The notes under the pieces: generated by a model
Database searches by the model: none
Seen by the model: the letters and a program-made list of their open reading frames with translations, nothing else
Told to the model about the DNA's origin: nothing
DNA from: Hyphococcus sp.
GTDB lineage: Bacteria; Pseudomonadota; Alphaproteobacteria; Caulobacterales; Parvularculaceae
Length of the DNA stretch: 64,000 bases
Assembly: GCA_028284345.1 (NCBI GenBank)
Contig: JANQRY010000006.1
Span: 186,001 to 250,000, forward strand
Direction of reading: 5' to 3'
Shown: in pieces, positions 48,725-51,828 of the stretch
Position numbering within the stretch: the first letter of the stretch is position 1
How the letters are laid out: each line of letters starts with the position of its first letter
Translations under genes and position numbers: made by a program

Positions 48725-49783
48725 CTAGGCAAAACCGGCTATTTTCTTCGCGTCGATATCGTGTTTGCGAACGATGCCGCGGAGCTGATCGTAGCTGAGG
48801 CCGAGACCCTTGGCGGCGCGCGTCTGGCTGCCGCCGGCGACGGCGAGGGCGTCCGTGACGAGGCGCCGTTCGATTTCATCGAGATGGGCGCGGAGGTCGT
48901 TGGTCGGTCCGGTCAGGGCCGGCGCGGCCCGGGGGACAGGCGCACGGGCGGCCGATCCGTCCGCGGCATCCGCTCCGATTTGCGCGCCTTTCGGCGCGCC
49001 CGCCTGATCAAATGGGTCAATGGTTACGCTTTCGATCTGCGCCGGGCCGCTGGCGCGCGACCAGTGAAACATCGCCCGTTCCGCGGCGTTCTTCAGTTCA
49101 CGGACATTACCGGGCCAGGAATGGCTTTGCAGCGCCGCGACGGCGGCGGGCGCGAGGCCGGGAAAGGGAACGCCAAGTTCCGCCGCCATGGCCGCAGCGA
49201 AATGGGCCGCCAGCAAAGGGATATCCTCGCGCCGGTTTCGCAGGGGCGGCGCAACGACCACGTCGAAGGCCAGCCGGTCGAGCAAGTCGGCGCGGAAGCC
49301 GCCGCGCGCCGCGCGGGCGCGCAAATCAACATTGGCGGCCGCGACGATGCGGACATCGGCGATGCGCGCTTCCTCACCGCCGACCCGCTCATATTCGCCA
49401 TATTCAATGACGCGCAGGAGTTTTTCCTGAACCCGTCCGCTGGCCGAGGCGATCTCGTCAAGGAACAACGTGCCCCCTTCGGCGCGCTCGAACCGGCCGC
49501 GATGCTTTTTTGCGGCGCCGGTGAAGGCGCCGGCCTCGTGTCCGAACAATTCGCTTTCAAGCAGCTCCTCGTTCATTGCCGCGCAGTTGAGTTTCACGAG
49601 CGGCGCCTCCCAGCGCGGCGACAGGAAATGCAGCCGCGCCGCCAAGAGTTCCTTGCCCGTGCCGCGCTCGCCGAGAATCAGCACCGGGCGATCGACCTCC
49701 GCCACATCGGAGGCATGGGCGAGGGCGTCGAGAAAAACAGGGCTCTGGCCGATCAGTTCAGGCGCGGTGGGTTGCGGTTCCAT
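48725..49783 (-). CDS. pspF: Psp operon transcriptional activator PspF
   Basis: A 352-residue sigma-54 activator without an N-terminal receiver domain. The AAA+ core has Walker A GERGTGKE, the sigma-54 contact motif GAFTGA in GHEAGAFTGAAKKHRGRF, Walker B GGTLFLDEIASA and the Arg-finger region WPGNVREL. A Fis-type helix-turn-helix closes the protein (GGSQTRAAKGLGLSYDQLRGIV). Absence of a sensory domain fits PspF, which is held inactive by PspA. It is divergent from the psp operon across a 197-base gap. Confidence 0.92.
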   Translation of the reverse strand: MEPQPTAPELIGQSPVFLDALAHASDVAEVDRPVLILGERGTGKELLAARLHFLSPRWEAPLVKLNCAAMNEELLESELFGHEAGAFTGAAKKHRGRFERAEGGTLFLDEIASASGRVQEKLLRVIEYGEYERVGGEEARIADVRIVAAANVDLRARAARGGFRADLLDRLAFDVVVAPPLRNRREDIPLLAAHFAAAMAAELGVPFPGLAPAAVAALQSHSWPGNVRELKNAAERAMFHWSRASGPAQIESVTIDPFDQAGAPKGAQIGADAADGSAARAPVPRAAPALTGPTNDLRAHLDEIERRLVTDALAVAGGSQTRAAKGLGLSYDQLRGIVRKHDIDAKKIAGFA

Positions 49784-49800
49784 GCGTGAAAAATACCATA

Positions 49801-49916: not shown

Positions 49917-49932
49917 TGGCACGGCTTTCGCA
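49917..49932 (+). promoter_or_regulatory. Sigma-54 promoter of the psp operon
   Basis: TGGCACG-GCTT-TCGCA matches the -24/-12 consensus TGGCACG-N4-TTGCA at every fixed position except one. The GG and GC dinucleotides have correct spacing. It precedes the small ORF at 49981 by about 50 bases and is divergent to the sigma-54 activator gene pspF. Confidence 0.88.
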
Positions 49933-49980
49933 ATGGTTAAGGCCAGACGGGAAATCTAACCCCGCAAACAGGAGATCAGA

Positions 49981-50106
49981 ATGAGCCGATACCGATATGA
50001 CGACCGTTATTGGGAGAACCGGTTGGAACGGGCCGTCACCGGCCGCGCCGGTTTCGCCTGGGGCGCTTTTTTCCTCGGTTTCATACTTGGCGGGATCATT
50101 TTTTAA
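49981..50106 (+). CDS. 41-aa membrane protein leading the psp operon
   Basis: This ORF of 41 codons starts MSRYRYDDRYWENRLERAV and ends in one hydrophobic helix (GFAWGAFFLGFILGGIIF). GGAG lies six bases upstream of the ATG. It is the first gene after the sigma-54 promoter, and its stop runs into the Shine-Dalgarno of pspA. Length and composition fit a Psp-associated membrane peptide, but it is neither PspB nor PspD by sequence. It is too short for the ORF track. Confidence 0.85.
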   Translation: MSRYRYDDRYWENRLERAVTGRAGFAWGAFFLGFILGGIIF

Positions 50107-50120
50107 GGAGACCATGACCC

Positions 50121-50795
50121 ATGGGCGTTTTTTCCAGACTGAGCGACATCGTCAATTCGAACATCAACTCCATGCTCGACCACGCCGAGGATCCCGAAAA
50201 GATCGTGCGGCTGATTATTCAGGAGATGGAGGACACGCTGGTCGAAGTGCGGGCCAACGCAGCGCGCGCCATCGCGGACAAGAAGGAAATCACGCGCAAG
50301 CGTGACGAATTCAAGCGCCGCGCGGCCGAGTGGGAAACCAAGGCGGAACTGGCCATCGGCAAGGACCGCGAGGACCTGGCGAGAGGCGCGATCGCCGCCA
50401 AACGCAAGGCCGAGGAAATGATCGACCTCCTCGACAAGGAACTGGAGGCGATCGACGAGACGGTCGACAAGACCAATGACGACCTCGCCAAATTGCAGGG
50501 CAAGCTCAAGGAAGCGCGCGCCAAGCAGCGCTCGCTCGAAGTTCGCCGCAATGCAGCATCCGACGCGGTGCGCATCAGCCGTCAGGTCCACGACGGCCGC
50601 ATCGACGAGGCGTTGGCGCGGTTCGAACGCTATGAGCGCCGCGTCGACGAACTGGAGGCGGAAGCGGAAAGCTGGGCGCTCGGTCGTCCGCGTACGCTGG
50701 AAGACGAATTCGCCGAGCTGGAATCGGAAGATGCAGTAAAAGCCGAGCTCGACGCCTTGAAAGCGCGCCTTGCCGCACGCACATCGCAAAGCTGA
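50121..50795 (+). CDS. pspA: Phage shock protein A
   Basis: A 224-residue ESCRT-III-like coiled-coil protein. The N-terminus MGVFSRLSDIVNSNINSMLDHAEDPEKIV contains the amphipathic membrane-binding helix and the conserved DPEK motif; long helices follow to residue ~190. PspA binds PspF in unstressed cells and moves to damaged inner membrane on stress. AAGGAG precedes the gene. Confidence 0.96.
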   Translation: MGVFSRLSDIVNSNINSMLDHAEDPEKIVRLIIQEMEDTLVEVRANAARAIADKKEITRKRDEFKRRAAEWETKAELAIGKDREDLARGAIAAKRKAEEMIDLLDKELEAIDETVDKTNDDLAKLQGKLKEARAKQRSLEVRRNAASDAVRISRQVHDGRIDEALARFERYERRVDELEAEAESWALGRPRTLEDEFAELESEDAVKAELDALKARLAARTSQS

Positions 50796-50819: not shown

Positions 50820-51065
50820 ATGGCAGATTTTATCTGGGTTGTGGCGATTGTCGCCATCATCTTCGTGGCTTGTCCGGCGGTGTTCCTGCACTACCAGACG
50901 GAACTCCGGAAAACGAAGTCGATTTCCGCCGACGACGAACGTCTTGTCGATGATCTCTGGCGCACGGCGCAACGGCTGGAACGCCGCGTTGAAGCGCTGG
51001 AAACAATCCTCGACAAGGAAGCGCCGGACTGGCGCGACGACTATCCGGAGCGCCCCAATGCCTGA
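50820..51065 (+). CDS. pspB: Phage shock protein B
   Basis: An 81-residue single-pass protein. A transmembrane helix (FIWVVAIVAIIFVACPAVFLH) is followed by a coiled coil (DERLVDDLWRTAQRLERRVEALETIL), the PspB layout. It transmits membrane stress with PspC to PspA. Its end overlaps the pspC start by eight bases. Confidence 0.92.
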   Translation: MADFIWVVAIVAIIFVACPAVFLHYQTELRKTKSISADDERLVDDLWRTAQRLERRVEALETILDKEAPDWRDDYPERPNA

Positions 51066-51528
51066 GCATCATCACCATCACCACCATCATCACTGGCGCG
51101 ATCGTTCAAGCTACGCCTTTCGCGCCGGCGCGCCCGGACCCGGCCCCAATCGCCATCGTCTGTACCGGGATAAAAAGCGCGGCATGCTCGCGGGCGTTTG
51201 CGCCGGCATTGCGAATTATTACGGATGGCCGGTTGAATTTGTCCGCATCGCGGTGATCGCGTCGTTCTTTTTCTTCGGACCGTTCACGATCCTCGCCTAT
51301 GTGGTCGCGGCCTTTCTTATCAAAACGGGCCCCGCCATTCCGGAATATGGATCGCGGGAAGAAGAAAAATTCTGGCGCACCTTTTCGACGCGGCCGCGGG
51401 TCACGTTCTCGGAACTGAAGCACCGGTTCCGGGCTCTTGATGCGCGCATTGTCGATCTCGAAACGGCGGTGACGTCGAACGAATACGGGCTGCGCAAGGC
51501 GTTTCGCGATCTCGAACGCGGCGCCTGA
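51058..51528 (+). CDS. pspC: Phage shock protein C with native poly-His N-terminus
   Basis: A 156-residue protein. Nine consecutive His residues follow MPE. The PspC domain reads HRLYRDKKRGMLAGVCAGIANYYGWPVEFVRI, then a hydrophobic helix (VIASFFFFGPFTILAYVVAAFLI) and a C-terminal coiled coil (ELKHRFRALDARIVDLETAV). ATG 51058 overlaps pspB; the track start 96 codons upstream is out of the gene context. The His codons are mixed CAT/CAC, so they are not a cloning tag. Confidence 0.92.
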   Translation: MPEHHHHHHHHHWRDRSSYAFRAGAPGPGPNRHRLYRDKKRGMLAGVCAGIANYYGWPVEFVRIAVIASFFFFGPFTILAYVVAAFLIKTGPAIPEYGSREEEKFWRTFSTRPRVTFSELKHRFRALDARIVDLETAVTSNEYGLRKAFRDLERGA

Positions 51529-51663: not shown

Positions 51664-51828
51664 ATGACGATATTGCTGATGATCGCCAGGGCGCTGGGAT
51701 TGATCCTCGCGGCGACGCTCCTTTTCCTCGGCTTCGCCGAAGCGCTTGATGCAAAAATGATCGGCGTCTCCCAGCAGGGGCTCTGCGCCGGCCAGCCCAT
51801 TACCGGGTGTTTTCTGACAATCATTTAG
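51664..51828 (+). CDS. Small membrane protein (54 aa) after pspC
   Basis: This ORF of 54 residues begins MTILLMIARALGLILAATLLFLGFAEA, a clear hydrophobic helix, and ends with a two-Cys tail (GLCAGQPITGCFLTII). GAGGAA lies upstream of the ATG. It may belong to the psp transcript, although 135 bases separate it from pspC. No family is recognised. Confidence 0.7.
   Translation: MTILLMIARALGLILAATLLFLGFAEALDAKMIGVSQQGLCAGQPITGCFLTII

Follow-up and report, generated by a model that had tools for sequence, protein, structure and literature searches.

The predicted psp transcript of the Parvularculaceae genome studied here begins with a gene for a 41-aa microprotein (MSRYRYDDRYWENRLERAVTGRAGFAWGAFFLGFILGGIIF), and a homologue of this gene precedes pspA almost throughout the order. 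The microprotein is under purifying selection, which is strongest in its helix, and is a predicted tail-anchored inner-membrane protein. Our leading, still tentative interpretation is that it represents a tail-anchored component of the Psp operon, both in this order and in some other Alphaproteobacteria, where it would act as a membrane-side partner of PspA.

The window, i.e., the whole stretch of 64 kb that was analysed, comes from a 3.4 Mb genome placed near Marinicaulis; the named records of close relatives belong mostly to Marinicaulis and other Parvularculaceae. It contains a complete psp locus in the canonical order, with pspF divergent and the 41-aa ORF followed by pspA, pspB, and pspC. 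The features of the locus (window positions) are as follows:

48725..49783, minus strand: pspF, divergent sigma-54 activator (TIGR02974, 449.2 bits, cut-off 443.55)
49917..49932, plus strand: sigma-54 (-24/-12) promoter TGGCACGGCTTTCGCA (pattern match)
49970..49974, plus strand: Shine-Dalgarno AGGAG of the 41-aa ORF (sequence)
49981..50106, plus strand: gene of the 41-aa tail-helix microprotein (conservation before pspA, pN/pS 0.22)
50050..50103, plus strand: predicted C-terminal transmembrane helix, residues 24-41 (alignment, pN/pS, AF2 helix)
50105..50110, plus strand: ribosome-binding site AAGGAG of pspA, overlapping the stop codon of the 41-aa ORF (sequence)
50121..50795, plus strand: pspA (TIGR02977, 287 bits, cut-off 242.95; PF04012, 1.9e-42)
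50820..51065, plus strand: pspB (TIGR02976, 74.7 bits, cut-off 51.7)
51058..51528, plus strand: pspC (TIGR02978, 119.5 bits, cut-off 104)

PspF, PspA, PspB, and PspC all scored above their own NCBIfam cut-offs, which establishes the PspFABC gene content. The pattern TGGCACGNNNNTYGCW had a single match in the window (0.02 expected), and no other was found in the rest of the 3.4 Mb genome; the reversed control pattern gave 0 matches. The sigma-54 promoter lies in the pspF-pspA gap, and rpoN was found in the host genome. Because the sigma-54 site is located upstream, pspABC downstream, and pspF is divergent, the 41-aa ORF was assigned as the first gene of the predicted transcript. This agrees with the original prediction that the first gene behind the sigma-54 site, at exactly 49981-50106 (+), is this ORF and not pspA. 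The psp transcript of E. coli starts with pspA. The locus thus resembles the classical sigma-54 Psp system (PspF-PspABC, E. coli type) in its divergent PspF, sigma-54 promoter, PspA, PspB, and PspC, but differs from it in the extra microprotein gene between the promoter and pspA. The ORF is separated from pspA by 14 nt, and the overlap of its stop codon with the ribosome-binding site could couple the translation of the two genes. In most microprotein-bearing relatives, a sigma-54-like site is located 190-440 nt before pspA, and a GGAG-type site precedes the equivalent ATG in most relatives.

The PspC sequence starts with MPEHHHHHHHHHW (51058-51100), a natural run of nine histidines that precedes the PspC domain; to judge from antisense ORFs in relatives, many PspC proteins of the genus may start in this His-rich way. 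The sequence GTGAAAAATACC (49784-49796) adjoins the pspF start and was detected in a comparable position in 13 of 83 loci, a count in which the locus of the window figures twice; one of the 13 (L091) belongs to another family. The sequence is a candidate PspF-binding or autoregulatory site. A 54-aa hydrophobic ORF located 3' of pspC (51664-51828) was, in contrast to the 41-aa ORF, found in 3 of the 39 searched, the near relatives G001, G014, and G016.

Selection on the ORF was estimated from 21 same-length sequences of the genus, which differ mostly at the third codon position. The pooled pN/pS was 0.22 for the whole ORF, 0.34 for residues 1-20, and 0.08 for residues 21-41, the true ratios being probably lower because synonymous differences are near saturation. 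In the two other frames of the same sequences, the ratio was about 1.7.

The gene is tightly linked to pspA in the order. All 43 loci first examined (genus, family, and order) had a homologue directly before pspA. The order sample comprised 299 genomes, of which 125 were PspA-positive (126 pspA places) and 174 pspA-negative. The microprotein was detected at E <= 1.2e-9 in 123 of the PspA-positive genomes (124 places), and 123 of the 126 pspA genes had the homologue 12-97 nt upstream (median 31 nt) on the same contig and strand. The original prediction depended on the ORF being conserved in relatives with the same promoter, and with these counts it stood. The single unpaired microprotein place was observed in G855, whose pspA is located at a contig end. 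No match of E <= 1.2e-9 strength was obtained in the 174 pspA-negative genomes; the weak matches in two of them, G053 (with an internal stop codon) and G745, were not counted. The genome G815 carries two pspA genes, each with its own, different microprotein copy in front. Genomes of one genus are not independent of each other, and the Fisher value computed for the association of pspA with the microprotein is therefore not to be taken literally; the association still holds over about two dozen genera.

Two real exceptions without the microprotein, G862 and G819, were found among the 126 pspA places. In G862, the microprotein gene was lost and the sigma-54 site, pspF, pspA, pspB, and pspC were all kept; the sigma-54-like site TGGCACGCCGCGTGCA is located shortly upstream of pspA, with no ORF between them. 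This locus (L142), the one clear natural loss of the gene, has two pspB matches 3' of pspA. In G819 (L141), two short Arg-rich ORFs (MHNVIAFSP.. and MSAAFPETP..) fill the slot upstream of pspA. In genus g19 (L033, L034, and L035), a further short basic ORF (MTFRT../MTYRT..) lies ahead of the tail-helix gene, ~180-450 nt before pspA, so that the transcripts of these loci may begin with two microproteins.

The class sample included 337 genomes, 40 of them with PspA. Using a profile against the set of upstream ORFs (E <= 1e-4), the microprotein was found before pspA in 10 of these 40 genomes; G339 and G266, which matched less well but show the pattern too, extend the count to 10-12. In 8 further class loci, the slot is occupied by another small or hydrophobic ORF. 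Some of these 8 may be diverged relatives, and the four beside a MGIFSRTRDIIA-type PspA look unrelated to the microprotein. The remaining 20 pspA loci had neither the microprotein nor another small or hydrophobic ORF in the slot; in these 20, the sigma-54 site, where found, is mostly 48-85 nt before pspA. The gene occurs where pspF and pspA are separated by about 324 nt or more and is missing where the gap is short. In other families (L065, L068, L088, L090, L092, and L096), the slot between the sigma-54 site and pspA holds small ORFs of membrane type that resemble the microprotein little or not at all. On the PspA tree, the microprotein is patchy and about seven changes are needed, a distribution that would fit an old component with several losses, repeated gain being the alternative. 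A search of 349 phylum genomes detected no convincing microprotein outside the class. The weak matches in class and phylum (E 0.0001-0.01) were located away from pspA or contained internal stop codons and were not counted, and a plasmid search with PspA, which retrieved almost only enterobacterial PspA and one Sphingomonas sequence, was uninformative for the microprotein. Since roughly half of the pspA operons sampled in the class have no gene of this kind, and G862 has lost it, the microprotein is not essential to Psp.

In all members of the family, the N-terminal part is variable, 20-50 residues long, and net positive, with many Arg, Tyr, and Asp residues; a single C-terminal helix follows and reaches the last residue or its neighbour. 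The alignment of 31 diverged sequences showed W27, F30, and G33 to be invariant, G37 to be present in 28 of 31, and R22 to be nearly invariant as well; the N-terminal segment was net positive in all 31. The 41-aa ORF itself has both the W-x2-F-x2-G-x3-G pattern in the C-terminal helix and the position directly before pspA. AlphaFold2 modelled the protein as a single helix (residues 4-40) with a mean pLDDT of 75, and with 75-91 per block from residue 21 onward. The earlier description of an Arg/Tyr-rich N-terminus with one C-terminal helix was borne out. The conserved helix residues were not significantly clustered on one face in the test applied (p = 0.2). The positive tail suggests, by the positive-inside rule, an N-in, C-out topology.

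No Pfam or NCBIfam model, including any LiaI-type domain or the PspD and PspG profiles, matched the 41-aa ORF, and its relatives had no consistent Pfam match. The PDB profile search revealed no relative of solved structure; its best match, PsaJ (E = 0.24), was read as a chance match to a hydrophobic helix. The structure search gave no match either, as expected for one helix. Two large Psp surveys (Ravi et al. 2024, PMC11237479; PMC9239133) list pspFABC operon variations and, in the portions considered here, do not mention the microprotein gene; to this extent, the claim that it is not described in the classical systems was supported. Given this silence and the lack of a Pfam or NCBIfam model, the microprotein is rated as a new added component of the known Psp system. 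Being short and without a model, it was probably missed by profile-based surveys. It shares with PspD and PspG of Enterobacterales, which are small membrane-associated members of the PspF regulon, the small size and the link to PspF, but its gene has a different position and no family match. The nearest parallel is LiaI of Bacillus subtilis, encoded in the liaIH operon and described in PMC9239133 as anchoring LiaH, a PspA homologue, to the membrane: there too, the gene of a small membrane protein stands just before that of a PspA homologue on a stress-induced transcript. The 41-aa ORF has the same placement, immediately before pspA on one predicted transcript; however, it differs from LiaI in having no detectable sequence relation, a single C-terminal helix, and sigma-54/PspF control instead of LiaRS.

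The microprotein is most likely a membrane partner of PspA, one that would at best resemble LiaI in its way of working and is unrelated to it. A PspA-related role is the most likely one because the gene is tightly linked with pspA and with no gene outside the operon. Membrane stress would free PspF, and the microprotein would be made just ahead of PspA and inserted so that the basic tail stays in the cytoplasm and the C-terminus reaches the outer face. It could then provide newly made PspA with a docking or assembly place at the membrane. The W-x2-F-x2-G-x3-G pattern might serve helix-helix contact, i.e., self-association or contact with PspB/PspC, and the variable Arg/Tyr/Asp tail might meet PspA or lipid head groups. 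The paired duplication in G815, the linkage in the order, the occurrence with long pspF-pspA gaps, the purifying selection on the helix, the invariant W27, F30, and G33, the net-positive N-terminal segment, and the LiaI precedent support the partner role. Against it, PspA of microprotein-bearing species retains an N-terminal membrane helix of its own (MGVFSRLSDIVNSNIN) and therefore has no obvious need of an anchor; the operons that do not have the gene and the non-significant clustering on one helix face also speak against it. Of the two functions originally proposed, a PspA anchor or partner appears to fit the anatomy better than a sensor: with the helix closing the protein at its C-terminus, there is no periplasmic part. 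Sensing of external signals is therefore unlikely, and the helix itself might sense how the membrane is packed. A wider claim, which we regard as conceivable but doubtful, is that the microprotein is a missing Psp subunit, a dedicated PspA membrane receptor for a large part of Alphaproteobacteria. In some sister lineages, small membrane proteins unrelated to it would have taken over its slot, and a docking partner of the LiaI kind would thus have arisen repeatedly.

Other roles were considered. The microprotein might be a regulator that, bound to PspB/PspC within the membrane, adjusts the release of PspF from PspA, as feedback or as an intrabilayer signal relay. The presence of pspF, pspB, and pspC in the microprotein-bearing loci examined, a conserved single helix whose G-x3-G suits contact with other membrane helices, and the second pspB match accompanying the loss in G862 are consistent with such a function, but the gene belongs to the very operon that it would control, is dispensed with in many pspFABC operons of Alphaproteobacteria, and encodes no periplasmic part for sensing; this role is unlikely. 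It is rather improbable that the helix acts as a free membrane effector, which would itself alter the packing of the bilayer or its proton leak during stress, alongside PspA. The model for this function is E. coli YohP, a short stress-induced membrane protein that alters membrane rigidity and potential (PMC12719787). Such stress-linked, single-span microproteins of under about 50 aa are similar in size and anatomy; the present one, however, is encoded inside the psp operon and has an invariant W/F/G pattern and a longer cytoplasmic tail. Its position beside pspA and the paired duplication argue for a pspA-linked role, and the invariant positions exceed the needs of a helix that meets lipid only. 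There is little probability that the gene is a leader ORF, whose translation rather than product controls pspA by coupling: the stop codon overlap in the window and the short distance to pspA in Parvularculaceae agree with this, but selection acts on the amino-acid sequence, whose general character is maintained from family to family, and the distance varies from 12 to 97 nt. A chance ORF within a long 5' untranslated region, for which nothing but the short length speaks, was ruled out with near certainty by the codon statistics, the invariant residues, and the conservation upstream of pspA.

The microprotein seems to have been overlooked in a stress system that is otherwise well studied, its role being inferred. 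For the delivery of PspA to the damaged membrane and the signalling of the PspA state, it offers a conserved 41-residue candidate partner whose docking is testable in the species that carry it. The psp operon in many Alphaproteobacteria is thus more than pspFABC.
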